NCBI RefSeq assembly: GCF_000520955.1
Contig: NZ_JACC01000035.1
Location: 1-64,000 of the forward strand
Origin: Aquimarina pacifica
GTDB lineage: Bacteria; Bacteroidota; Bacteroidia; Flavobacteriales; Flavobacteriaceae
Direction of reading: 5' to 3'
Length of the DNA stretch: 64,000 bases
Positions 30,083 through 64,000 of this stretch are shown here, piece by piece. Under the pieces are notes generated by a model. The model made no database searches. It saw nothing but the letters and a program-made list of their open reading frames with translations, and was not told the origin of the DNA. Position 1 is the stretch's first letter. Every line of letters starts with the position of its first letter. A program made the position numbers and the translations under genes.

Positions 30083-33000
30083 ATGAAACACAATCAAAAA
30101 AAACTAAAAGATTCATTAAAGGACATTGTTCCTTTAGTAAATAAAGAGTTCTCTTTTATGGGAATGATCATCACAACGAGCGATCTGCAAAGGGTTCTAA
30201 TTATTGCCTTATTATTGACCAATTCGATAACACAAGCGCAAAACCCTTCTGACGTATTAGATTTATCGACCTGGAGTTTGACCTGGCCGGTTGATCAAAA
30301 CGGTAATGATAGTAGTGGAGCAACTACTTGTGAACAGATAAACAGAAATGCCGCAACTTGGGATCCCGATGAAATCACAGGTGTCATACCCGCAGCCTAT
30401 CAGGATTTTTTTGAGGCTGTTGGATCCGAGGTTGTTTTCAGGGCACCCGTATCCGGCGCAACTACAGGAGGTACCGATTATGCCAGAAGTGAGCTAAGAC
30501 AACAAATTCCGTTGGATGGTGTGTTAGGAAATAATTTTTGGTCCGTACAAAATGAACAGGAACTGGACGTAAGAGTTCGAGTGACTAACCTACCTAGTGT
30601 AAAACCTGCCGTTTCAATGGTACAAATTCATGCCTATAATGAAGATTACGAACCGCTACGTTTGCAATATGATGCCGAAACCGACGGTAATGGTCTTCAT
30701 ATTGTAATCAACGAATCCACTACCCATCCTAATATTGTTGATTACACCCTTGGGGATCAACTTAAAGTGAATGTCAAAGTAAATGAAGGTCGAATCTATT
30801 TAAGTCTTACTAATGAAAGTAAGCCCAATGCAGCCTCATATGCATTAGACTGGCTCTCTGGCAGAGAAAATTGTTACTTCAAGGTTGGGGCCTATGTACA
30901 ATCTAGCCATGTGCTAATGGATTGCAAACCTGATGATGGGTATACTACAAACCCGGACCCAGATGAATTTGCCGCAGTAGCCGTATCGGATATGTCAGTT
31001 ATTGTTAATGGGAGTGGAACTATTACTCCAACAGAACCTATCAACCCTACCCATGGACAGACAACGTACCTTCAAGAAAATTTTGATGACTATGATACCG
31101 ATGATTCTCTAGGAGATGGAGTTCCTTTTGTAGAATCAGGAATCTGGATTGATGGAGGTTCTAATGCATTTCTCAAATCCACCGAAAAATATAATGGAAA
31201 CAGGAGTTTTGTGATTTCTAAGTCAGACGAAACAAATACAGATCTAGAAAATCCAAAACCATACTATTCTTCTATCTATACAAAACCATTAGATTTTTCT
31301 GGAGCTACAGCAGCGGCATTGGACTTTAGATATTTGATAACTACAAAGACAGATGCGACGACTGGCGAACTACTTGTGCCAACAGGGTCTTTTAGTGCAG
31401 AAATATCGTTCGATGGCGGAGAAAATTTCGTTGACCTAGAGAATTTTATTATGGCGAATCAAACGATTATAAGTAATACCGGATCACTTTATGTAGTAGA
31501 TTGTAAAGCAGAATGTGATGTTACATATCCTGATGATAAGACTACAAGAGATGCCTGTAGAGCACAATGTGATGCTGATAAGGAAGACAATGCTATTCCT
31601 GCAGAAGAAACGCAACAATATTGGTCTTTAGCTTCTATCGTTATCCCACAAGAGCAGCTATCTAATATGACAGTTTTTAGAATCAAAAGCTACCTTGGTG
31701 CTAACGATGAGGCCTCTATATATCTAGATAACATCGTGCTCAGTTATGAAGGTACTGAACCTGATCTCAGTGAAAATACGATCACGGTAGCGGGGATTGC
31801 CGACCCTGCAACATCAGGAAGATCATTACTTCAGATTGATGGCATATCAAATACTTTCGAAGATTTTGATGCTATTGACGATTGGGGTATCTGGCAAGAT
31901 GGAGGTAGAAATGTATTTATTACCGGTTTCAACTCAGTAGATGAAAATGGTGTCGCATATGACAAAGATGCATGTGAGGTAGACCCAAGCCAATGTTCCT
32001 ATGGAGTGGGGATGCGTAGTTTCTTTTCAGGAAAATCAAATGGTACGGACGAGAATGGTGTTGATCTTGGATTTCAAAAATCTGCATATTCCTCTATCAT
32101 AACTCAAAATTTGGATCTCACTACGGTTTCGGGAAGTGTGGACCTAGAATTTTCTTTTATTTCTTATCAAATGAAATTAGCTGATCCGACTCAAGAAGAA
32201 CTCGAGGCTGCTGGAAACGTAAATCTTGTAAATATCGATGGCGAACCTATACTGGGATACGCTCCTGGACCTGATCGAGTAGAAATTTCTATATCTACGG
32301 ATTGCGGATATACTTCTAAACTGTTTAAAACACTTACCTTCGGTGAACACTTTATAAATGATGTTCGCCAGACAGTAAATTTTACTATTCCTGCAAATTT
32401 TATGGCTAGTGATGATGAAGCCGATCCAGAGAGTATACTCAATACAGATTTCTTAACAACAACAACTCAAATCAAAATTCAATGCTTCTCAGATACTGAT
32501 ACGCAACTGTTTTATATTGATGAAATCGGTTTATATACCTCGGGGGCTCAGGAATCTCCTAAGGGAACTCCAAGAGATTTGACATGGGCAAACTACCCAC
32601 AAACGATACTGACTGCAAATACCAGTTTTGACTCCTATGATCGCATCAATAGTAAGTTTTTAAGACAAGATGTTTATGAAAGTAACTCTTATCTTGGAGG
32701 TGATGGACTTTTTGAACAATTTGATGAAGAAACTGGTCAAATAGAATATATACCAGGACTATATGGTGCTGTAGAGCATCCTGATGACTGTGGTGATCAT
32801 ACCTATTTAGGCGATTGGGCTGAAGGTGAAAAACACATCGAACAAGAGTTTGATGCACAATTAGGAAAGTATGTGTTTAATTTTTATTCGCATCTTACGG
32901 CAGATACAGAACGTTGTCGTTATTTCGAGGGACAACAACCCGGTGAAGGTAAATATCAAGACCGACAACGTGTAGAGATCAAAACATATGATGATTCTGC

Positions 33001-35131
33001 AGACGAACAGTTATCCGTGCAGGGAGAAACTCATTTTTATGCTTGGAAAATGAAATTACCTGAAGGTTTTCAAGCTTCTAATAAATTTACACATTTGCAT
33101 CAAATAAAACCTGCCGGTGGAGAGCATAAAGGCATGCCTACTTTTACATTGACGGCAACTAGCAAGGTGGATCCTGCAGATGTAGATGGCGATCAAGAAG
33201 GGGATAGCGATGAAGGTCTTAGTGAGCTAAAGTTGCGTTATGCAGGCTTGTCAGAATCACAAGTGACCGCGGCAACCATAGATCTTGATGACTTAAAAGG
33301 ACGATGGATTCAGATTGTAGAAAAAATATTCTTTGGAGAATCCGACAAAGGTCGTTACGAAATTCTTATTTATGATCCAATCAATGGAAGCATTGATAAT
33401 CCATTACTAAGTTTTGAATCCTATAGTCTGCAAACCTGGAAAATTGGAGATACGGAAGGGGAAGATCCTGATAAATTTTTTGCGCGTCCAAAATGGGGTA
33501 TTTATAGAAGTACAGTAGAAGCTACAAAATTACGAGATGAAACTATTGGTTTTACAGATTTTGTATTACTAGAAGTGACCGATAGACAAGATGGACTTTA
33601 TGGAAACATAAAATCATTTGCAAAATATGCTGAGAGTATTCAGGGAGACGATATTGTAAACACTGACAGATATATCATCCAATTAGAGCCTAGTTCAGAA
33701 CCACTTATAATAAGTGATCCAGGCGTAAAATTTAACAGCCTATCTTATGATCGAGGATTCTACAAGGATGATTTTATTAATGTTGGTGGTTTAGGAGGTT
33801 TTGCTTTCAAAGCACAATCGACCATTTCTCAACCCGTAACGGTAGATAATTTGAGCTTTACTGTTCGTAGTAAAGCGGCAGATGATCTCGTAACCTTCTC
33901 AGTAACCGTGGGCGATCAAACTCAAGAATTCCAGTATCAGTCTACCAGTAATCAGGATTATCAGGTTTTTACTTTTGATGGGCCTTTTAGTTTTGAAAAT
34001 GCTGAACCTACAGAAATAGCTTTTGAAATCACAGCTAGTGAAAATAGCGAAACTGGAGATATCGCAAAATTTAGACTTTACGATATGACTTTTAATTATG
34101 ATGAATTTGCAATCAGCGAAATCTATGTAGATTATGATACCGATGTACAGAATGGCAATGGTACAGAGGCTGCTCCTTTTGGAAATATCCAATCAGCAAC
34201 AAACGCAATAGGCCAGGCCACAGGAGCATTAATCGTATATATTAGTGGGACTTTCCCAAACTCAGAATCTTTCAATTTGAACAATATAAATGAGCCTATT
34301 ACTTTCATTAGCGAAACAGGGTTTACTATAAAAAGTACAATTCAAGGCGGGACAACAGTATCTTCTGTAGGAGGGCTTTCTGGATTAGGAGCTACATTGT
34401 CGGATTCAGGATCCTTTACTATAGAACCCGATCGAACAGAATTAACAGGAGGAGCTACGGGTAACTCAAATGATCTCTTTATTGTCAATTCTGATGAAAG
34501 TGAAAACGATGCTAGTTTTCGTCTGCAAACTAAAGCAAATGGTGATAATAGGTATAGCGACTGGAATATAGCAGCAACAGCGCACCCTGCTCTGGGGAGT
34601 CGATTAAAGTTTGGTCTTTGGGAGGGTAACTCGCATAGCGATGATAACGAAAGAGAATTAGGGACAGAACATATGGCTATTTCATTAGATGGATATACCA
34701 TTGTTGAGAATGCTATGACCGTTGGAACAGAAACTTTAGTAGCAGGTTCAACATTAAGTATATCCGGAGCAGTATATATGTTGGGTCCGGTAGGATCTCC
34801 GGCAACTTCTAATATTTCAAGTCTCAAAGACAAATACTTATTAATGGTAGAAGGGGGGATTATAAGTGAGAATTATACAATTGCAAGTCCAGATAAATGG
34901 ATGGATGATGTGTTTAAAGATAAGTATAAGCTTCCATCACTTGATTCTGTAGATATTTTTATAAAAGAAAATGGTCATTTACCCGATGTCCCATCCGAAA
35001 AAGAAATCAAAACCAAAGGATATGATCTGCACGATATGAGTGTCATATTGCTTCAAAAAATCGAAGAGCTGACATTATATATTCTTGAAAATGAAAAGCT
35101 AATTAAGCGATTAGAATCATTAGAACATTAG
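30083..35131 (+). CDS. Giant multidomain polysaccharide lyase (PL7-like plus second lyase-like domain) with tail-fibre-like C-terminus
   Basis: The 1682-residue secreted protein has its hydrophobic signal segment at about residues 36-52, ending TQAQ; a start at Met26 or Met28 is possible. Residues ~57-310 resemble PL7 alginate lyase: RSELRQ (~135), QIHA (~181) and YFKVGAYVQ (~263). Two related beta-rich modules follow (~340-560 and ~590-835; each has GIWxDGG). Residues ~846-1165 resemble heparin-lyase/PL20-type jelly rolls (RVEIKTYDD, THLHQIKP, KWGIYRS). A beta domain and a short repeat with DYDTDVQNGNGTEAAPFGNI come next. Residues ~1458-1682 form an NSDE module plus a tail-fibre-like domain ending in a coiled coil. 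No T9SS sorting domain is present. The role is probably degradation of alginate-like polyuronates at the cell surface. Domain assignments are from motifs only. Confidence 0.8.
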   Translation: MKHNQKKLKDSLKDIVPLVNKEFSFMGMIITTSDLQRVLIIALLLTNSITQAQNPSDVLDLSTWSLTWPVDQNGNDSSGATTCEQINRNAATWDPDEITGVIPAAYQDFFEAVGSEVVFRAPVSGATTGGTDYARSELRQQIPLDGVLGNNFWSVQNEQELDVRVRVTNLPSVKPAVSMVQIHAYNEDYEPLRLQYDAETDGNGLHIVINESTTHPNIVDYTLGDQLKVNVKVNEGRIYLSLTNESKPNAASYALDWLSGRENCYFKVGAYVQSSHVLMDCKPDDGYTTNPDPDEFAAVAVSDMSVIVNGSGTITPTEPINPTHGQTTYLQENFDDYDTDDSLGDGVPFVESGIWIDGGSNAFLKSTEKYNGNRSFVISKSDETNTDLENPKPYYSSIYTKPLDFSGATAAALDFRYLITTKTDATTGELLVPTGSFSAEISFDGGENFVDLENFIMANQTIISNTGSLYVVDCKAECDVTYPDDKTTRDACRAQCDADKEDNAIPAEETQQYWSLASIVIPQEQLSNMTVFRIKSYLGANDEASIYLDNIVLSYEGTEPDLSENTITVAGIADPATSGRSLLQIDGISNTFEDFDAIDDWGIWQDGGRNVFITGFNSVDENGVAYDKDACEVDPSQCSYGVGMRSFFSGKSNGTDENGVDLGFQKSAYSSIITQNLDLTTVSGSVDLEFSFISYQMKLADPTQEELEAAGNVNLVNIDGEPILGYAPGPDRVEISISTDCGYTSKLFKTLTFGEHFINDVRQTVNFTIPANFMASDDEADPESILNTDFLTTTTQIKIQCFSDTDTQLFYIDEIGLYTSGAQESPKGTPRDLTWANYPQTILTANTSFDSYDRINSKFLRQDVYESNSYLGGDGLFEQFDEETGQIEYIPGLYGAVEHPDDCGDHTYLGDWAEGEKHIEQEFDAQLGKYVFNFYSHLTADTERCRYFEGQQPGEGKYQDRQRVEIKTYDDSADEQLSVQGETHFYAWKMKLPEGFQASNKFTHLHQIKPAGGEHKGMPTFTLTATSKVDPADVDGDQEGDSDEGLSELKLRYAGLSESQVTAATIDLDDLKGRWIQIVEKIFFGESDKGRYEILIYDPINGSIDNPLLSFESYSLQTWKIGDTEGEDPDKFFARPKWGIYRSTVEATKLRDETIGFTDFVLLEVTDRQDGLYGNIKSFAKYAESIQGDDIVNTDRYIIQLEPSSEPLIISDPGVKFNSLSYDRGFYKDDFINVGGLGGFAFKAQSTISQPVTVDNLSFTVRSKAADDLVTFSVTVGDQTQEFQYQSTSNQDYQVFTFDGPFSFENAEPTEIAFEITASENSETGDIAKFRLYDMTFNYDEFAISEIYVDYDTDVQNGNGTEAAPFGNIQSATNAIGQATGALIVYISGTFPNSESFNLNNINEPITFISETGFTIKSTIQGGTTVSSVGGLSGLGATLSDSGSFTIEPDRTELTGGATGNSNDLFIVNSDESENDASFRLQTKANGDNRYSDWNIAATAHPALGSRLKFGLWEGNSHSDDNERELGTEHMAISLDGYTIVENAMTVGTETLVAGSTLSISGAVYMLGPVGSPATSNISSLKDKYLLMVEGGIISENYTIASPDKWMDDVFKDKYKLPSLDSVDIFIKENGHLPDVPSEKEIKTKGYDLHDMSVILLQKIEELTLYILENEKLIKRLESLEH

Positions 35132-35186: not shown

Positions 35187-35948
35187 ATGAAAAACTATAA
35201 AATCATGCAATTAGGTGTTCTGCTAATGCTTTTTGCAATACAATGGATGAGTGCTCAGGAAACATTAAATGCCTCTACATTTGGAGATGAGAGTGATCTC
35301 TATATTATCAACTCTGATGAAGGTGAAAATGATGCTGCACTTAGAATACAAACCAAAATTGATGTTGGTGACCTATATAACGATTGGGTAATATGGAATA
35401 ATCAAATGAATGGAGACCTGAATTTTTCGGTCTTTAGATCTCCAACACATGATGATACAGATGAGAGCAATTCGGGAGAGGTGCACCTAAAAATTAACAA
35501 AGAAGGAGTTGTATCTGTAAAGAATCTATTTACAGTAGGTACTGGAACATATCTTAATGATGTTTCTATGATCGTTGGAGGGGGAACCCACATAGGACGC
35601 TATGAGGGGTATAGTTCACTTAGCAACATTGAAGATCAATATCAATTATTTGTCGAAAAAGGTATTGTCAGTGATACTTTTTATCTGTCAGAGGTACCAA
35701 GTTGGGCAGACTATGTATTCTCAAAAGACTACAAGCTACCCAGTTTAGCATCTGTAGAAAATTTTATTCAAAAAAATGGTCATTTACCAGAGGTACCCTC
35801 AGAAAAAGAAATTCTTACAGAAGGGTATCAGCTACACGATATGAATGTAACGTTTTTACAAAAGATCGAAGAACTTACTTTGTATACAATCCAACAACGA
35901 AAGTTATTAGAGCAATTGTTGGATAATGTAGAAAAAAATAATCAGTAA
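35187..35948 (+). CDS. Secreted tail-fibre-like protein, paralogue of the lyase C-terminus
   Basis: The 253-residue protein has a signal peptide (ending WMSAQ) and then essentially only the C-terminal module of the preceding lyase. It shows DLYIINSDEGENDAALRIQT, then DYVFSKDYKLPSLASVENFI, NGHLPEVPSEKEI and the coiled-coil FLQKIEELTLYTIQQ. The domain is common at the end of Bacteroidota surface and tail-fibre-like proteins. It starts 55 bp after the lyase gene, suggesting an operon. It could co-assemble with the lyase through the coiled coil; this is inference. Confidence 0.75.
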   Translation: MKNYKIMQLGVLLMLFAIQWMSAQETLNASTFGDESDLYIINSDEGENDAALRIQTKIDVGDLYNDWVIWNNQMNGDLNFSVFRSPTHDDTDESNSGEVHLKINKEGVVSVKNLFTVGTGTYLNDVSMIVGGGTHIGRYEGYSSLSNIEDQYQLFVEKGIVSDTFYLSEVPSWADYVFSKDYKLPSLASVENFIQKNGHLPEVPSEKEILTEGYQLHDMNVTFLQKIEELTLYTIQQRKLLEQLLDNVEKNNQ

Positions 35949-35965: not shown

Positions 35966-36772
35966 ATGAAAACTAAATATATAAACAGTAGTTACCACAG
36001 ATATATCCTGTTCGTATTTATCACCTTAGCAAGTACATTAGGATGGGGGCAAGATTTAACAGGTGGATTAACAGGGACAAGGAGTGATTTTTTTATTATT
36101 AATAGCGATGAATCCGAAAATGATGCAGGTATACGATTACAAACAAGAGAAGGCGAATCGTATTCTGATTGGACCATATGGACAGACTCTTTTGGAGGAG
36201 AGCTTAATATTTCTTCATGGCGAAATACTTTTCATAATGATGATATCGAATATGAACCAGGAGATACCCGTTTATCTATCCATCCAGATACCAAACAGAC
36301 AATTCTATACAATGCATTATCAATAGGCAATGATGTAATTAAGGGTAACTCTGAATTGAGTGTTTTTGGGGTCACTTACATTTCAGAAAAAAATCAAGAA
36401 CCTAGAGGATTTAATGTAGGTTCCCATGCTGACAACTATTTGTTATGGGTTGAGACGGGTATTGTATCCGACGATCTAGCTATTATAAATGTAGAACATT
36501 GGTCCGATCATGTTTTCGAGGAGAATTATGAATTAAAAGACCTCGATGCACTAGAAGAATTTATCAAGAAAAACGGACATTTACCCAATATCCCATCAGA
36601 AAAAGAAATTTTAAAAGAAGGCTACAGCATCCATGACATGAATGCACGTTTTCTTGAAAAAATAGAAGAACTCACGCTATATAGTATCGAGCAAAACAAA
36701 AAAATCAATGCTTTATTAAAAGCTCAGGGTTTGCAAGATCAAATCAAACAAAGCACTACTCAAAAAAACTAA
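35966..36772 (+). CDS. Secreted tail-fibre-like protein, second paralogue
   Basis: The 268-residue protein has a signal peptide ending GWGQ, the shared module DFFIINSDESENDAGIRLQT, and the end module HVFEENYELKDLDALEEFI, NGHLPNIPSEKEI and FLEKIEELTLYSIEQ. It begins 17 bp after the previous paralogue. The three consecutive copies indicate local duplication. Function is unknown beyond probable oligomerisation or surface display. Confidence 0.75.
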   Translation: MKTKYINSSYHRYILFVFITLASTLGWGQDLTGGLTGTRSDFFIINSDESENDAGIRLQTREGESYSDWTIWTDSFGGELNISSWRNTFHNDDIEYEPGDTRLSIHPDTKQTILYNALSIGNDVIKGNSELSVFGVTYISEKNQEPRGFNVGSHADNYLLWVETGIVSDDLAIINVEHWSDHVFEENYELKDLDALEEFIKKNGHLPNIPSEKEILKEGYSIHDMNARFLEKIEELTLYSIEQNKKINALLKAQGLQDQIKQSTTQKN

Positions 36773-36776
36773 ACAT

Positions 36777-37373
36777 ATGAAAACTATAATTTTAAAGATA
36801 GTATGTACCATACCAGCACTGCTATTGTGCTTGTCTATACAGTCACAAGTAGATCTAGATGCAGATGATCATAATTTTCTAGATCCATATGATGATAATG
36901 GAGATAAATGGTTTGAAGATATTCAAGACCGTAGGGATTTTTTTAACAACTTAGTCGCTGCTATAAAAACTAATGACGAACTATATGGTGATATGGGCTT
37001 TGTGTCAATTACGGAAGATCTTTTTATAGCTAGTGTAAGAACGGATGATGATAGAGTATATGATGATAAAAACTATTTTCTTACTTTCTCTACGATCTAT
37101 GATAGTTTTTCAAGATCTGAAACTATTTGTTGTACTAATAGTTTAGAACTCGATTATTACAGAATTCATTTTTTTATCGGATCTAATATTTCGGAAGCTC
37201 AAATTGAAGTTAATAGTCAAGTGCCAGCTGCATTGTCTAATTGGAGCGATACATTTGCAACGGATAATTTTGAATTAGATTTAATAGAGTCGAATGCTTT
37301 AAAGAGCGAATGGCTTGAACTAGTTCCTCCTTTACAATCATCCCTAAATTCTCTTTACATTACTGGAAAATGA
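36777..37373 (+). CDS. Secreted protein of unknown function in the lyase operon
   Basis: The 198-residue protein begins 4 bp after the previous stop, so it belongs to the same operon. It has a signal peptide (MKTIILKIVCTIPALLLCLSIQSQ) followed by an acidic stretch, VDLDADDHNFLDPYDDNGDKW. Two adjacent Cys residues occur in TICCTN. No known domain or T9SS tail is recognised. Confidence 0.65.
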   Translation: MKTIILKIVCTIPALLLCLSIQSQVDLDADDHNFLDPYDDNGDKWFEDIQDRRDFFNNLVAAIKTNDELYGDMGFVSITEDLFIASVRTDDDRVYDDKNYFLTFSTIYDSFSRSETICCTNSLELDYYRIHFFIGSNISEAQIEVNSQVPAALSNWSDTFATDNFELDLIESNALKSEWLELVPPLQSSLNSLYITGK

Positions 37374-37510: not shown

Positions 37511-39082
37511 ATGAAAAATAGTATCAAAAAACAGAATATTAAAATTTGGCTAATTCTAATAGCCCTAATGACTTTACCAGTTACCATTCAATCTCAATTT
37601 CTTGTGGAATCTGACGGGACATATGTAATTACATCTAAAACTCATGAGTTGGACTATAAGCCAATAGTTGCTTCTCCTGAATGGTTCAAAGGTTTTTTTA
37701 GAACTTTAGCTTTATTTGTTACAAATGATAAGACCGAATGTGAATTAGATAGCGCTATCCTGGGACAAAAAATCAAACTTCACATCTACTACCCTACACC
37801 AGATAATGCTCATAATCAGGACAACTACGACCTACCTGTTATAGTTTTTGGTTATGGAGGTGGTTTTTTAAATAAATGGGCAGCTCCTCAAGGTATTCCA
37901 CCAGGGAATGATTACAAGGTTCCTGAATATTTTGCTAAACGTGGGTATATTGTAATTGCCCCAGAATATCGAATTGGTATAGACCTACATAATGCACAGC
38001 TTGCCGAACGTGCTATATGGAGAGCTGTTCAGGATTTACGAGTTACTATTAGGTATGCTCGAGCATACGTAAGTGATAATCTCGTAAAAGCAGATACAAA
38101 CGCACCCTTAACGTATTTGGGATGGAGTTCCGGAGGTTTTATGGGATTACATAATCTTTACCTCAGGGATACGGGTACCAACAGGCCTATTTCTACTACC
38201 GACAGTTTAGAAGTAGATTATGATGTTTCAAATTGGTTTTTGTCAACTGTTCCAATAGAAGGCAGTACTTATGATCTTGGCACACTGGATGCACCCAGAC
38301 ATGGTAAGGGTGATGATGATTTTACAAATTATTACCCAGAGTTGCAAGGTGATCCTGTTCAGGACATTAGTGTAATCGTTTCAGGAGCTTTAGGGAAACT
38401 GAATTGGATAGGCACAATACCCGATTCAACAACTACGGGAAGACCTAAAGCTCTTATGATGATGCAGCATAGACAAGATGGAGTAGTTCCCTCTGGAAAA
38501 GGTAAGGCATATCAAGGTTTTTCTTTTTTTCAGAACGATTCTTTTCAATACCCTGAAGTGAATGGTACTTTTGCAATCGATGAGTATTTTACTAATAACC
38601 CGGATTATAGACCCCAAATATATGAATTTTTAGAGGTAACTCAGGGCTGTGCTAATGCTAATTGTGTGGAAGGTAATGCGGGTGGAGATACTGGACCATT
38701 GGGTAAACAAACCTGGTATCACGATCCGATGGAATATGCCTCGAATCTCGCGGTAATGGGAAAAATAGAAAGCTTTATAGAAGCAAGTATTGATAGTCTA
38801 AGTTCTGGAAGTAAATTAGCTAAAACACCTCTACTAGATAAAGGACAATCAGACCTGTACCCTAATCCAACACTTGATTATGTTAATATAAAAATGACCG
38901 ACAAAAAAGTATCAGAATTTAGAATTTATGATATTAGTGGAAATCTTTTATTAAGTCAAGAAATTAGTAACACTAATGATGAAACCTTGCAAATTGATGT
39001 TAGCAATTTTTCTGAAGGTATATATATGTTACACCTATTTACTGACACAGAAATCGAATTTTATAAAATTGCAAAACAATAG
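37511..39082 (+). CDS. Secreted alpha/beta hydrolase (esterase-like) with T9SS type A sorting domain
   Basis: The 523-residue protein has a signal peptide ending IQSQ. Its alpha/beta-hydrolase core shows GYGGGF (~114, oxyanion region, with Tyr where many relatives have His), YRIGIDLHNAQLAERAIWRA and the nucleophile elbow GWSSGG (Ser ~207). A candidate His is in WYHDPMEYA. The last ~75 residues are a T9SS type A domain: DLYPNPTLDYVNIKMT, FRIYDISGNLLL and FSEGIYMLHLF. A likely role is deacylation or de-esterification of a polysaccharide near the cell surface; the substrate is not known. It follows the lyase operon after 137 bp. Confidence 0.85.
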   Translation: MKNSIKKQNIKIWLILIALMTLPVTIQSQFLVESDGTYVITSKTHELDYKPIVASPEWFKGFFRTLALFVTNDKTECELDSAILGQKIKLHIYYPTPDNAHNQDNYDLPVIVFGYGGGFLNKWAAPQGIPPGNDYKVPEYFAKRGYIVIAPEYRIGIDLHNAQLAERAIWRAVQDLRVTIRYARAYVSDNLVKADTNAPLTYLGWSSGGFMGLHNLYLRDTGTNRPISTTDSLEVDYDVSNWFLSTVPIEGSTYDLGTLDAPRHGKGDDDFTNYYPELQGDPVQDISVIVSGALGKLNWIGTIPDSTTTGRPKALMMMQHRQDGVVPSGKGKAYQGFSFFQNDSFQYPEVNGTFAIDEYFTNNPDYRPQIYEFLEVTQGCANANCVEGNAGGDTGPLGKQTWYHDPMEYASNLAVMGKIESFIEASIDSLSSGSKLAKTPLLDKGQSDLYPNPTLDYVNIKMTDKKVSEFRIYDISGNLLLSQEISNTNDETLQIDVSNFSEGIYMLHLFTDTEIEFYKIAKQ

Positions 39083-44138: not shown

Positions 44139-45083
44139 ATGAAAAAATTAGTTACAATTATCATCGTCGCAATCTATGCAGTATCCTACGGACAAACAAC
44201 AATTGATGAAACTGCTATTCCTTCAACGGGTATTTCTTACCAAAATGGTCCAGGTACCTCCAATGAAGAAAACTGGACGTATCCGTACAGTGTCAAATTA
44301 AGTGTTTTTGGTAATATACACCGAAATTTTGAACTCGCGAATACAAGTAAAACCGGAACTACAACACTTGCCATGCGAACATACAATGGTGAAACTTCTA
44401 GTTGGTCAGACTGGCGAGAATTTCTTTTTAAAAACCAAAACGGATATGTTGGTATAGGGACTTCTTCACCAAATAGTCTTCTAGATATTAATGGAACTGG
44501 TGATGGAACTGAACTTTTGAGGTTTTCTACCGAAAGACCTTGGGTTTTTCGTCAGCTCAATTCTGGGGCAAGTTCTCGGCTTGATTTGCATTCTACTGTG
44601 GGTAGTAAGAATTTTTTAATTACATCGCCAAACAATAGTATAGCGGCTCAATTTATGGTATCAGACAATCAGGACGGAAGTCGAGTATTCCTTGTTCCTG
44701 ATGGAGGAAAAGTTGGTGTTGGAACCACTTCTTTTGGAAGTCATACGTTTGTTGTAGATGGTACTGTTGGAGCCAGAGAAATTAGAGTAGAATCAGGTAG
44801 TTGGTCTGATTTTGTTTTCGAATCAGGTTATGCGCTTCCTTCGCTACGAGATGTAGAAAATCACATTAAAGAAAATGGTCATCTTCAGGATATCCCTAGT
44901 GCAAAAGAGGTTGTAGCAAATGGATTCTTCCTTGGAGAAATGGATGCCAAATTGCTTCAGAAAATAGAAGAACTTACACTGTATACTATACAACAAGAGA
45001 AAAAAATCAAGGAATTAGAATTAATGAATCAAAAACTTCTTGAATTGCAGGAAAGAATTGAACTCCTTGAATCAAAAAAATAA
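44139..45083 (+). CDS. Secreted tail-fibre-like protein with coiled-coil C-terminus
   Basis: The 314-residue protein has a signal peptide ending SYGQ. Its middle contains GYVGIGTSSPNSLLDINGTG and KVGVGTTSFGSHTFVVDGTV, the repeat type of Bacteroidota tail-fibre-like proteins. The end reads SDFVFESGYALPSLRDVENH, NGHLQDIPSAKEV and LLQKIEELTLYTIQQEK. It is the fourth protein in the window with this C-terminal module, about 9 kb from the lyase cluster. No T9SS domain is present. Confidence 0.75.
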   Translation: MKKLVTIIIVAIYAVSYGQTTIDETAIPSTGISYQNGPGTSNEENWTYPYSVKLSVFGNIHRNFELANTSKTGTTTLAMRTYNGETSSWSDWREFLFKNQNGYVGIGTSSPNSLLDINGTGDGTELLRFSTERPWVFRQLNSGASSRLDLHSTVGSKNFLITSPNNSIAAQFMVSDNQDGSRVFLVPDGGKVGVGTTSFGSHTFVVDGTVGAREIRVESGSWSDFVFESGYALPSLRDVENHIKENGHLQDIPSAKEVVANGFFLGEMDAKLLQKIEELTLYTIQQEKKIKELELMNQKLLELQERIELLESKK

Positions 45084-58528: not shown

Positions 58529-61500
58529 TTATTTTGAAAATATTTTATTTAGCAATCTTGCACCCCAGTATACGTTTATACCAACTGTTTTGATCCCATT
58601 TAAGTTCAAAAAATCTCTGTTTCTTGATCTTAAAATACTTAACACATCCGTTTTAGAACCAATTTCAATAGCACGAACTTTTCCATTTTTATATAGAACA
58701 CCGACATCAGGTCTGGGACCGTATCGTAAGCCTTTGGGTGTTAAATTTCCCATTAATGACCTATACCCTCTATCTAATGTTACTCTAACTACATTTGGAT
58801 TCAAGGAATAAAATCTAGCTGCTAAGTTACTAAAAAAAGCATGTCCTCTAGTACCTGTTTTTTGTGCTGTTCCGACAATTTTGCTTCCAGTTCGTCCAAC
58901 TCTTGACAACCCTTTTAGAACCCCTGCACCTGGCACTATACTTAACGCTTCTATTTTTGCTCCTGCCATCTGCCCACCCATTGTATGAGCTAGGTTATTA
59001 ATATCACCCGTTGCTGCCGCATTATGTATGTCATACACCTGTCTTGCATGCTTAAGCATAGGGAAAGACATTTCTGCACCCCCCATTAGTCGTTGCATAT
59101 AGGCTTCTCCGGTAAACATAGAGGATGGGTTCGTAACGATATTTACCAGACCGTTCCACATGCCTTTCACATGACTTAGCTGACCTCCTAAATAACTATT
59201 TCCCGCACTCACAAACATATCTCCAATCCCCGGGTTGGGTGCAATCATAGGGTCGGCACTGGCATAATTTTGTGAGGTTTCTACGACCCTAGGAACTCTT
59301 GTGGCACTTTCGCTACTGCCACGACTAAATAAACTAAAAGGCATTGCTAACAAGTTTGTTATCCCATCCCATGCACTATCAATATTATTGCCTATCCAAC
59401 TTCCTACTTGGGTATCTTCAAAAATTTTATAGCCTGCAATCGCTGCAATAGCATATTTTAGAACGATAACACTTTCTATAGCCAATTCTCCACTAGGGTC
59501 CGTATACTTTAGAGGATTATTAAGGACATAACTGTATCGGTTATAGTTTTGGGTATCATACGGGTTCTGTATATAATTATCAGGGGATAAAAACCTACCT
59601 AGATTCGGGTCATACATTCTTCCATTCATATGTATAAGTCCCACATCAAAGAAATGTTCATGCCCCGTATACCCGCGATCAATAAGGTTATTATATCCAA
59701 AATCGGTATTATTCTCACTTGACCAAAACGCATCTATAGTTCCCCATGCACCAAATTGTCTTGATTCGACCAAGGTGACAGAGGTATCTGCGGCACCTTC
59801 CTTTTCTTGTTTTAGGATGTTTATAATACTTCCCAAGTGATCGCGATGTAAATAGTATTGATTGGGACCATCACTACTCCCATCGGTAAATAGCTCTATC
59901 TGTACCATTGGTGCAGTATATGCGTCTCCACCCTTAAAAGAGATAAACTTATAACTATCTGCTTCTCTGTCATACACCACCTCGACAGGTATGATCGAAG
60001 AATAGATTTTGTGATATCTACGCTCTTCTTTGGTAGTTTGCTCACCTCCATACCATGCCTGTGTTCTATCCATCATAGGACCATAGGCAAAACTGACCCT
60101 GCCTTTTCCTTGTTCGTAAATCTCCACAGGTTTTTTGTGGGCATTGTAGGTGATTTCTTGTCCTATTCGATTTTCAAAATATTCCTCTCCGTTATTATTT
60201 AAGGTAATATCCTTTATCTGATATCGATGATCACCACTGGCATAAGCATATTCACCGATATTGGTATCACTGGTAATTCGCCCACGAGTATCAAAAGTTT
60301 TGGTTTGTGCAAAAGGACCGCTTATTACGGTTAATCGTTCCTTTGCATCATAGGTAAATGTTTCTTCATATTTTTGAACATTTCCCACATTTGTTTCATG
60401 TATTCTATTACTTAATGTACCTCTGGCGGTATTAAAGGAATAGCTAGTTTTTATATCGTAGGTATCTGCATTAGTACTGCCTAATTGATCTCCTTTTGTA
60501 TATCCGTATGCGTCATAATTTTTTTGGTGCAAATAAGTATCACTGCCAAAAGTTATGAGTGTCGGTTGTTCTCTTTCGTTCATACCCTTAATGGTCCAGT
60601 CCCCAGAAATACCCGTATACATACCACTCGTATCATAGGTATAGGATTGTAGCATCGTACTGGATTGTCCCCCTACTTGTGCGGTATGCGTTTCTGATTG
60701 TATTCTAGCGTAAGCATCATAGCTCATTTTTTTTGTAAATGTCCCGTTTGATGTAATTTCTGTAATCTGTGAAGGACGCAAATCACTATCATAGTCGTAG
60801 GTGTAATTATGTGTAGACCCGGTAATGGCATCTGTAGCTGCCATTCCTACCAGTAGCTTGCTACTACTATCATAGGTATAATAGGTGGTCATGTCCGTTA
60901 GATCTCCTTTACTTTTTTCTAATTGTAGTCTACCGTTTGGCAAATATTCATAGGTGGTGCTACCCTTGGGAGTTGTTTCTTTGGTTACTTCGCCAAAACC
61001 ATTATACTCATAGGTATATACTCCTCCCGAAGGATCGGTAAGTTTAGTTCTACGCCCCCAACCATCTTGTTCTATAAGCTGATTTACACCAAAATGACCT
61101 ACGGATCTTAAGGCTCCATTGCCATAATAGTTTAGAGCGATGGATTCTCCAGAGTCAATTACAAATATATCTTGACCCATAGGATTTTTTTCTGTACTTA
61201 CTGTTTTGACCCCGTCATTCACTGTAGTTGTTAATTTATCATAGGTATACGTAATGGTCTGACCGGTATATAATTCTTGTGTACTGACTCTACCATAAAA
61301 ATCATAAGATGTTGTATTCCATTGTGTAGGAGAACTACCAAAGTGAGGCTCACTTTGTCCCGTTAGCCGATCTAGCATATCATAATCATAGGTAACTCGT
61401 ATCCATTCTCCCCCAAAACTCTTTTTACCGATATACTGGATTCTACCCAGTGGGTCATACTGGGTGATGGTTGCACTACCGTCATTACTCTCTGTAGTGA

Positions 61501-64000
61501 CTTGGTATCTAAGATCTGTCTCAGTATAGGTCGTTGTTGTACTTATACCCAAATCATCTGTAACACCAATAATACGATTCCAAACATCGTATGTATAGTG
61601 TATGGATTGATTAAAAGGATTTGTCTCTTTGGTAAGAAACCCTGTAGCTGTATTATAGGCATAAGTAGAGGTTAATCCTTCTACATCCGTGGCTTCGGTC
61701 ATAAAACGACCAGAAGAATCGTAGGTTGCACTAATGGTTCTACCAACTTCTCCATAGGGAGTTGTAGTGGTTTCTATAACGTTACCAAAATTATCATACG
61801 TATAGGTTTCTGTATTAAACTCTGTATCATTTCCTTTGACTTGTAAGGCAGTGAGTAAGTATCCCGAATAGGTATATTGTTCTTCTGTACTAAATGTTTT
61901 TGTGCCTATTGTAGAGGTTACTTTTTTGTGTGATGGTCTACCTATAGAATAGGACCCAGTACTTGTGTTATTGTTATAAGTAAGCTCAGTAATCATACTA
62001 CCCTTACCAGAATAATTGACAGTTTCATTGGTAGGATTGCCATAACTATCGTATTGATATTGTGTTGTGGTTGTTGTACCTAACAATTGGTTTTGATGGG
62101 TACTAGTGTCTACCTCTAATCTGAATACTTTGTTAGTACCCAAGGTATAGTCATATGCTGTATTTGTATGGGTAATGTAATCCGAAGGAATCGTACCAAA
62201 ACGATGGGTATATGGAGTCTTATACTGATCAGTAACCGCGCCTCTTAATTGTAGATCTCGCGTAGTATTGGTATAGATCAATTGGCTTGTATCATTAACA
62301 GGATACCAATTACTGCGAGCGATATACTTGAACCCCATAAATCCTAATCCCCCAAGATGGGAAACCCCTCCTTTATAATAATAATTCTGATATCGACTAA
62401 CATTTGGTGCCGATTTTTCTATGGTACGTACTAATTTGATGGTGGGAGCACTAACAATATCTACATAGGGATATGTCATTTGATAAGGATCAGAAGAGTA
62501 TACATTGGTCGTAGGATACGAATCACTAAAAGGATCTAGATCACTATATCTAATAGAATAATCAGTATCATTTTGAGTTATCGTTTGTATAGTAGATGTT
62601 AATTTATGATCATAATTATAGCTGAAAGAATGTATATTACGATCACTAATGGTAGCAAACTCTAATTTATTATTGGGTTGATCAGAAGATAAGAAAATAG
62701 GAAGCGGATAATGTTTTGTCTGACCTCTGGATGTTGAATAGCTCCCGGCAACCTCAAATCCTACAAAATTACTAGAGGCAGACATTCCGTTATTTTTGAA
62801 CATTGTTATTTGTTGGTAGCCATCAGTTCCATCATTATTTGTACTTGAATTATGACTTATGATGTCTGTTTTTCCATCCCCATTAATATCTATCGGGATC
62901 AAATTATACGTATAGGCTTTTCCTGTTATAGGGTGATATGTACTTGCATTATATGTAAATGCATAGGTTCCCGAAGTTCCTATAAATGATGTTCCGGTGG
63001 CTGTAAATAGATAAAATAGCCTAAAACCGTCAGTACTTGGTGTAAGAAAATCCGTTTTTCCATCTCCATTATAATCTCCTAGTAAAATGGGCATGTCGGT
63101 TTTAATAGCCGTATTTGTACTTTGCCAGAGTAATTGCAATGAATGAGTATCCATATCAAAGGAATACACATATACTTTTCCGGTAGTAAAATGAAGAAGA
63201 TCCGTTTTTCCATCCCCATTAACATCAGCTGCCAGCAGTCTATCCCCTGAGATATAGGATGCTTGTAATACGCCCGAATTCGTAACAAAACCTGTCGTCT
63301 TTCGCCGATCCATGTCTATAAAATGCACTTCTGGTGTAGGCGTATTGTTTGTATCATTACACTGACAATATGTTGACCCCCAACCTTTACAATCTGTACT
63401 TGTATATTCTTTAGGGATCGCAACGATATCGGTTAATCCATCACCGTTAAAATCACCGGAAACATATTCCTGTGGAATAATTCTTGAAAAATTACTAGAG
63501 AAACATGTCAAATCTGTAGAATAGGTGGGTGGATTCCATGTTTTTTCATAGTGTACAGTAAGTGGTTCTGAAGCGCCATTAGAATACGCCTTTAATACTG
63601 CTTGACCTGAACTACTATTATGCTTTATAATGGTAAACCCTTGACCTGATATCATATTGTTGTTATCATTTAATAAGGTCATGGGTACAATCTTTTCAAA
63701 TTCACCAGAATCTACAGTAATAGCAGATTCATAATTCTGATTTTTAAACACCCTAAATTCATCGTTTGTTTTTGGATGTATAATAAAATCCATTCTACCA
63801 TTACCTGTTAAATCCATCGTCACAACTTCTGAGGTACGTTGCTCAATCCCCACAGCAGGAAGATTTGCGGTAATCAAAGAATAATCAACAGACTCACTAC
63901 CTCGATTATAGTTATAGGTAAAATTAATTGGACTATGTGCCTGAGAATTGTCTCCCGTTTTTTCGATAATCTGTTCTAATATATCATAATCCAGTGCATC
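58529..64000 (-). CDS. FG-GAP/RHS-repeat polymorphic toxin, 5' end outside the window
   Basis: The minus-strand frame is open to the right edge, giving at least 1823 residues; the N-terminus lies outside. The visible N-terminal part has FG-GAP/VCBS calcium-type repeats (DVNGDGKTDLLHF, DYNGDGKTDFLTP, DINGDGKTDIISH). Long YD/RHS repeats follow (YTYDNFGNVIETTTTPYG, YDPLGRIQYIG). The RHS core signature MNGRMYDPNLGRFLSPDNYI ends at DPSGEL (about 59490). Beyond it, 317 variable residues end in a domain with RPDVGVLYKNGKVRAIEIGS then KTD, a nuclease-like Asp...Glu-x-x-Ser-Lys pattern. RHS shells encapsulate a C-terminal toxin. The export route is not visible here. Confidence 0.9.
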   Translation of the reverse strand, partial: DALDYDILEQIIEKTGDNSQAHSPINFTYNYNRGSESVDYSLITANLPAVGIEQRTSEVVTMDLTGNGRMDFIIHPKTNDEFRVFKNQNYESAITVDSGEFEKIVPMTLLNDNNNMISGQGFTIIKHNSSSGQAVLKAYSNGASEPLTVHYEKTWNPPTYSTDLTCFSSNFSRIIPQEYVSGDFNGDGLTDIVAIPKEYTSTDCKGWGSTYCQCNDTNNTPTPEVHFIDMDRRKTTGFVTNSGVLQASYISGDRLLAADVNGDGKTDLLHFTTGKVYVYSFDMDTHSLQLLWQSTNTAIKTDMPILLGDYNGDGKTDFLTPSTDGFRLFYLFTATGTSFIGTSGTYAFTYNASTYHPITGKAYTYNLIPIDINGDGKTDIISHNSSTNNDGTDGYQQITMFKNNGMSASSNFVGFEVAGSYSTSRGQTKHYPLPIFLSSDQPNNKLEFATISDRNIHSFSYNYDHKLTSTIQTITQNDTDYSIRYSDLDPFSDSYPTTNVYSSDPYQMTYPYVDIVSAPTIKLVRTIEKSAPNVSRYQNYYYKGGVSHLGGLGFMGFKYIARSNWYPVNDTSQLIYTNTTRDLQLRGAVTDQYKTPYTHRFGTIPSDYITHTNTAYDYTLGTNKVFRLEVDTSTHQNQLLGTTTTTQYQYDSYGNPTNETVNYSGKGSMITELTYNNNTSTGSYSIGRPSHKKVTSTIGTKTFSTEEQYTYSGYLLTALQVKGNDTEFNTETYTYDNFGNVIETTTTPYGEVGRTISATYDSSGRFMTEATDVEGLTSTYAYNTATGFLTKETNPFNQSIHYTYDVWNRIIGVTDDLGISTTTTYTETDLRYQVTTESNDGSATITQYDPLGRIQYIGKKSFGGEWIRVTYDYDMLDRLTGQSEPHFGSSPTQWNTTSYDFYGRVSTQELYTGQTITYTYDKLTTTVNDGVKTVSTEKNPMGQDIFVIDSGESIALNYYGNGALRSVGHFGVNQLIEQDGWGRRTKLTDPSGGVYTYEYNGFGEVTKETTPKGSTTYEYLPNGRLQLEKSKGDLTDMTTYYTYDSSSKLLVGMAATDAITGSTHNYTYDYDSDLRPSQITEITSNGTFTKKMSYDAYARIQSETHTAQVGGQSSTMLQSYTYDTSGMYTGISGDWTIKGMNEREQPTLITFGSDTYLHQKNYDAYGYTKGDQLGSTNADTYDIKTSYSFNTARGTLSNRIHETNVGNVQKYEETFTYDAKERLTVISGPFAQTKTFDTRGRITSDTNIGEYAYASGDHRYQIKDITLNNNGEEYFENRIGQEITYNAHKKPVEIYEQGKGRVSFAYGPMMDRTQAWYGGEQTTKEERRYHKIYSSIIPVEVVYDREADSYKFISFKGGDAYTAPMVQIELFTDGSSDGPNQYYLHRDHLGSIINILKQEKEGAADTSVTLVESRQFGAWGTIDAFWSSENNTDFGYNNLIDRGYTGHEHFFDVGLIHMNGRMYDPNLGRFLSPDNYIQNPYDTQNYNRYSYVLNNPLKYTDPSGELAIESVIVLKYAIAAIAGYKIFEDTQVGSWIGNNIDSAWDGITNLLAMPFSLFSRGSSESATRVPRVVETSQNYASADPMIAPNPGIGDMFVSAGNSYLGGQLSHVKGMWNGLVNIVTNPSSMFTGEAYMQRLMGGAEMSFPMLKHARQVYDIHNAAATGDINNLAHTMGGQMAGAKIEALSIVPGAGVLKGLSRVGRTGSKIVGTAQKTGTRGHAFFSNLAARFYSLNPNVVRVTLDRGYRSLMGNLTPKGLRYGPRPDVGVLYKNGKVRAIEIGSKTDVLSILRSRNRDFLNLNGIKTVGINVYWGARLLNKIFSK

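Follow-up and report, generated by a model that had tools for sequence, protein, structure and literature searches.

A 1682-residue Aquimarina protein with a PL7 lyase domain, a second lyase domain of PL13/PL20-like fold and a fibre-like end

The open reading frame at 30083–35131 on the forward strand of the window (the whole 64,000-nucleotide stretch of Aquimarina pacifica DNA analysed here) encodes a chain of 1682 residues, in which a PL7 alginate-lyase-type domain and a second lyase domain of another type are combined with a fibre-like C-terminal end. We consider it fairly likely that the protein is secreted and combines two polyuronate-lyase sites with an oligomerizing stalk, probably acting on alginate, a polymer from brown algae. 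The translation in this marine bacterium is free of stops, and an independent ortholog of 1659 aa with matching architecture and neighbours is present in uncultured Aquimarina 2-863 (L058). These results bear out the first-pass annotation, in which one protein with this architecture had been proposed. The gene's closest named relatives are from Aquimarina.

Lyase domains and substrate

The chain begins with a signal peptide of unusually long n-region (residues 1–53, 30083–30241; all features of the chain lie on the forward strand). The hydropathy maximum is located at about residue 37, the hydrophobic core covers approximately residues 37–50, and the peptide ends with ...TQAQ. No lipobox cysteine was seen in it. 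The L058 ortholog retains the n-region KKLKDSLKDI, and the conserved charged extension of ~35 residues ahead of the signal peptide (30083–30190) is longer than usual.

The first lyase domain corresponds to residues 55–310 (30245–31012). According to the Pfam search, residues 59–276 match PF08787 (Alginate_lyase2, PL7) with an E value of 3.3e-32 and a score of 112.6 bits (cut-off 29.7). The catalytic motifs RSELRQ, QIH and YFKVGAY, from which a PL7-like lyase had been proposed, are present at 135, 181 and 265, respectively. The solved PL7 enzyme AlgAT5 (PDB 5zqi) was aligned with an E value of 3e-11, and RSELR, QIH and YFKxGxY are in register. The same genome contains several further PL7 genes, the best of which is 48% identical; one of the genes is on a frame of 1930 aa with a PL6-like start. 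In the same genome, a giant ORF of 1927 aa (L040, 5195–10978, G000:C27) has a PL6-like start, a PL7 domain at ~712–957 and then long repeats.

Two jelly-roll-like modules are located between the lyase domains, M1 at residues 318–560 (31034–31762) and M2 at residues 565–820 (31775–32542). They are internal duplicates of each other (pair E value 3e-6), in agreement with the duplicated modules expected at this position. The matching module of the homolog L050 hits Reelin_subrepeat-B with an E value of 1e-7. The two modules probably act as spacers or bind sugar.

The second lyase domain corresponds to residues 864–1170 (32672–33592). PF14099 (Polysacc_lyase) spans residues 957–1143. Its score of 27.7 bits in the whole-protein scan is under the cut-off of 29.9, whereas the domain scanned alone gave 30.6 bits, and 24 of 25 relatives of the domain match the family. 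PF14099 was built around both heparin lyase I (PL13) and glucuronan lyase (PL20); a literature search for the family gave nothing relevant. The second set of motifs was found as DRQRVEIK at 960, HLHQIK at 1004 and KWGIYRS at 1137. When the domain is numbered from residue 864 as position 1, R98, R100, H141, H143, Q144, K146, R272, K274, Y278 and R279 are invariant across 70 aligned sequences.

No PDB relative of the domain was found by single-sequence or profile searches, and a fold search was therefore needed. The AlphaFold (AF2) model has a mean pLDDT of 79.9, and it is poor only in domain residues 1–46 and in two loops. With this model, Foldseek placed glucuronan lyase (PL20) at the top (E value 2e-10), followed by ulvan lyase, heparin lyase I, and PL14, PL7 and PL36 alginate lyases. 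By VIA-align, where rows less than 1 Z apart were counted as tied, heparin lyase I (PL13) came first, with a Z of 16.9 and an r.m.s. difference of 3.5 over 215 residues. Glucuronan lyase (PL20) gave a Z of 15.9 over 199 residues, and GH131 (~15) and PL7 enzymes (~14) were lower. The earlier guess of heparin-lyase/PL20-like motifs was therefore right as to fold. Heparin lyase I and endo-beta-1,4-glucuronan lyase thus share the jelly-roll fold of the second lyase, but their identity to it is just 14–16%, and the gene context of its standalone relatives points to alginate instead. As to the CAZy family of the domain, the literature yielded just lists of alginate lyase families (PL34, PL36, PL44 and others). 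According to sequence and predicted fold, the second domain is a lyase of a family different from PL7, with its putative catalytic residues conserved. A single region of lyase fold, or catalytic residues missing in both regions, was looked for as evidence against the two-lyase architecture. Two lyase domains were found instead, both with conserved putative catalytic residues.

The assignment of alginate as the likely substrate comes from the PL7 domain and from the genes that surround standalone relatives of the second lyase. These relatives adjoin PL6, PL7, PL17, kdgK or kdgA genes in 43 of 74 loci; among the 45 loci with full flanks, the count is 31. In a small set of control stretches, no such alginate genes were found apart from the window gene itself. 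According to a reading of the translations, the standalone paralog of the same genome adjoins a KdgK-like kinase gene and a KDPG-aldolase-like gene. Apart from the fused PL7, however, alginate pathway genes are missing from the loci of the giant proteins. As the giant clade is also far from the alginate-linked standalone enzymes, the second lyase may cut another uronate, and we hold alginate as the substrate at moderate confidence.

Thus the two lyases may differ in substrate, the PL7 domain acting on alginate and the PL13/PL20-like domain on a glucuronan-like polymer or a sulfated uronan, so that a mixed wall would be dismantled. We regard this as possible and less likely than a common substrate. 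The closest folds of the second domain, heparin lyase I and glucuronan lyase, and the separation of the giant clade with its loci free of alginate genes are consistent with two substrates, and a two-substrate Aquimarina enzyme is known (CelAly; PMC13235733). On the other hand, substrate is not given by fold similarity. The standalone relatives are ~34–45% identical over the domain and share the invariant residues, and most of their full-flank loci are alginate-linked. We prefer alginate for both sites as the more likely reading, at the confidence stated above.

Fibre-like end, export and neighbouring genes

Behind the second lyase, the unassigned module M3 (residues 1171–1345, 33593–34117) is 84.6% identical to that of the L058 ortholog, with a dN/dS of 0.07. 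A PDB search with M3 gave just an insignificant match to a xylanase chain (2y6j, E value 0.32). The following short stretch (residues 1346–1440, 34118–34402) is beta-helix-like by the look of its sequence, and no Pfam match was found for it. The tail-fibre-like end then covers residues 1441–1682 (34403–35128) and is related both to proteins encoded downstream and to proteins of phage contigs. In the predicted model of the tail, the last ~75 residues form confident helices, the final one of 33 residues, and the preceding beta part is poor. The helical prediction and the C-terminal homology to phage proteins agree with the fibre-like end described by the first-pass annotation.

Two small exported proteins of the same kind are encoded directly downstream on the forward strand. 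The first (253 aa, 35187–35948) starts 55 bases downstream and is 43% identical to residues 1454–1677 of the giant lyase. The second (268 aa, 35966–36772) is 45% identical to residues 1453–1677. Both have signal peptides, and both are kept in L058, at 78% and 76% identity, respectively. The next gene on the same strand encodes a 198-aa protein (36777–37373) with no Pfam match; it is kept in L058 at 57% and probably belongs to the same operon. It is followed by an alpha/beta-hydrolase (esterase-like) gene (37511–39082, forward strand), whose product carries a T9SS type A domain (Por_Secre_tail, E value 3e-14). The hydrolase part matches BD-FAE at 8e-5, below the cut-off, and the gene is kept in L058 at 52%. 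Thus the same four downstream genes are kept in L058. The wider neighbours read, from their translations, as gliding/T9SS (gldKLMN-like), efflux and metabolic-type genes, and Rfam and tRNA scans gave no matches. At 58529–63877 on the reverse strand, an RHS-like ORF of 1782 aa has a 262-aa gene directly behind it, an arrangement like that of a polymorphic toxin and its partner. In L042 and L043 of the same genome, tandem sets of fibre-tail proteins are located beside large RHS-like genes.

The most conserved part of the end is a C-terminal module at 34832–35128 with the motifs HLPxVPS and KIEELTLY. An alignment (A4) of this module from the window and phage sequences has 12 invariant columns in 26 sequences. 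Within the same genome, the last ~80 residues occur in 17 copies, and across the phylum 45 of 247 genomes have them. Further copies in the window are located at 35637–35933, 36434–36730 and 44736–45032, and others were found at the loci L138–L150. In eight multi-copy genomes, the copies are arranged as 14 pairs and 5 triplets versus 31 singletons; the tandem copies may be the result of duplication or may reflect assembly partners. No convincing family for the module was found in Pfam, PHROGs, NCBIfam or the PDB, the last giving no match at all. As an unnamed C-terminal module common to phage proteins and exported bacterial proteins, it merits its own family.

Of the bacterial carriers examined, nearly all start with a Sec signal peptide, and the module is located at or near the C-terminus. 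The module also ends proteins of marine-looking viral contigs (L144–L150). The last ~80 residues of these phage proteins, with the HLPxVPS/KIEEL C-terminus, are homologous to those of the giant lyase, but the phage proteins are without a signal peptide, whereas the window gene has bacterial genes, and none of phage type, as its neighbours. The giant lyase thus shares the C-terminal module with phage tail fibres, and a phage or prophage gene cluster is not found with it. As phage genes are lacking around it, an origin of the complete gene from a phage or prophage was rejected. In two viral contigs, fibre-tail proteins with a signal peptide (L139, 4611–5423; L140, 4524–5261) are located beside phage-type genes, as if they were cargo genes of Bacteroidota prophages.

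The T9SS type A domain, whose absence had been pointed out, was indeed not found. No type A or B domain (PF18962/TIGR04183, PF13585/TIGR04131) was detected in the giant lyase at E<=1 with Pfam and NCBIfam, and on the same result a domain of either type masked by divergence was rejected. PF18962 is present in three relatives (L049, L060 and L050), and the fibre-like end occupies the place of their T9SS domain. Thus the fibre-like end could be a new C-terminal signal of the type IX secretion system and a substitute for the type A domain, three signal types (A, B and C) being already known (PMC10202324). The Sec signal peptides of the bacterial carriers and the T9SS domain on a downstream neighbour fit such a signal. 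SprA was found in 45 of 45 module-bearing genomes versus 190 of 247 overall (Fisher p 2.6e-6), but we discount this co-occurrence as mostly shared descent, because the listed SprA-negative genomes are nearly all of one family. In addition, only 45 of the 190 SprA-positive genomes have the module. The module is also found on phage proteins that have no signal peptide, and therefore its basic role cannot be T9SS export. We thus regard a new secretion signal as unlikely.

A rather doubtful extension is that the ~80-residue module on the enzyme would let the lyase assemble with the two short fibre-like proteins into a heteromeric extracellular fibre, which would display the two-site polyuronate lyase and replace T9SS surface anchoring.

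Relatives and history of the architecture

According to the tree, six giant proteins with the M1-M2-lyase core group on a single branch (100/99), separate from 65 standalone or other relatives, and the window protein is nested beside L058 and then L060. The core was found in 3 of the 66 genomes searched as the genus. Three PL7-free proteins that terminate in a T9SS type A domain also have it, namely L060 (Aquimarina RZ0), L049 (G177) and L050 (another flavobacterium). The whole core was aligned with that of L049, resulting in 50% identity over 858 columns. The core is also present without PL7 in Gammaproteobacteria, namely Leucothrix arctica and a Pseudomonadales bacterium (L061, 6405–13376, and L062, 6504–11888). 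In Leucothrix, RTX repeats and F5/8 modules come after the core. These gammaproteobacterial cores suggest transfer between phyla with changed C-terminal parts. The giants L060, L049, L050, L061 and L062 are thus homologous to the window protein across the whole ~850-aa core, but they are without PL7, and their ends are T9SS domains, F5/8 modules or RTX repeats and not fibre-like.

Among the giant proteins found, PL7 in front and the fibre-like end occur in the window protein and L058 only. On the evidence of the sequences, M1-M2-second lyase appears to be an older core, and the most economical reading is that the window/L058 lineage gained PL7 and replaced its end. A similar regulator-like gene is present downstream on the opposite strand in the window, L058 and L060 (39–41% to the window copy). 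The T9SS-ended relatives and the fibre-ended lyase form a natural before-and-after pair. Therefore, it is testable whether the fibre-like end replaces the T9SS domain or alters location and valency.

Comparison of the window gene with L058 indicates purifying selection on all modules that follow the signal peptide. The overall dN/dS is 0.15, with values of 0.18 (PL7), 0.13 (second lyase) and 0.12 (tail), and the signal peptide alone is looser at 0.59. The selection on the second lyase bears on the question of whether this domain has lost its activity and serves as a mere binding module, the protein being a single-lyase enzyme. The jelly roll is common in lectins and binding modules, and legume lectins are among the weaker fold matches. 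However, the top fold matches are lyases, the invariant R, H, Q, K and Y residues are intact, and the domain is constrained as given above. A loss of activity thus appears improbable. An assembly or frame artefact fusing adjacent genes, which the unusual domain order in two genomes only might suggest, is hardly credible and was rejected, as the independent L058 genome has the equivalent ORF and neighbours and the stop-free frame is under purifying selection throughout.

Proposed action and comparison with known systems

The protein would be a Sec-exported multimodular lyase, in which the N-terminal PL7 site and the internal PL13/PL20 (PF14099)-type site are spaced by the duplicated jelly-roll-like modules. 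The two sites would most likely cut alginate by beta-elimination, each taking different block types. The architecture would have arisen by addition of PL7 to the older M1-M2-lyase core, and the chain would now be ended, in place of the T9SS domain of its relatives, by a fibre-like module related to the downstream neighbours. From helix prediction and homology, the last ~75 residues probably oligomerize via a coiled coil, either by themselves or together with the two fibre-like proteins encoded alongside. We propose that the lyases would therefore be held in a multivalent array.

Two-lyase chains and multimodular wall-degrading enzymes of Aquimarina are already known. In the literature compared, neither the pairing of PL7 with a PL13/PL20-type lyase nor a fibre-like end on such an enzyme was found. 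CelAly of Aquimarina sp. 2-A2 unites a GH5 and a PL31 domain in a single chain, and activity was demonstrated for both (PMC13235733, ISME J 2026). Two-enzyme chains are thus an established strategy in this genus. CelAly resembles the present protein as a multimodular exported protein with two catalytic domains and accessory modules, connected with brown-algal walls. In contrast, CelAly has a cellulase beside its PL31 lyase, and a T9SS domain is found on all CelAly homologs, whereas the present protein has two lyases and a fibre-like end. Aly35 of Vibrio sp. H204 is a PL7-class enzyme with two lyase domains of split preference (PMC11671496), and it shares with other tandem alginate lyases (PMC9331746) and with the present protein the presence of two lyase domains per chain, the preferences in the known enzymes being partly different. 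However, Aly35 is classed as PL7 with both domains in a much shorter chain, whereas the second domain here comes from a different family.
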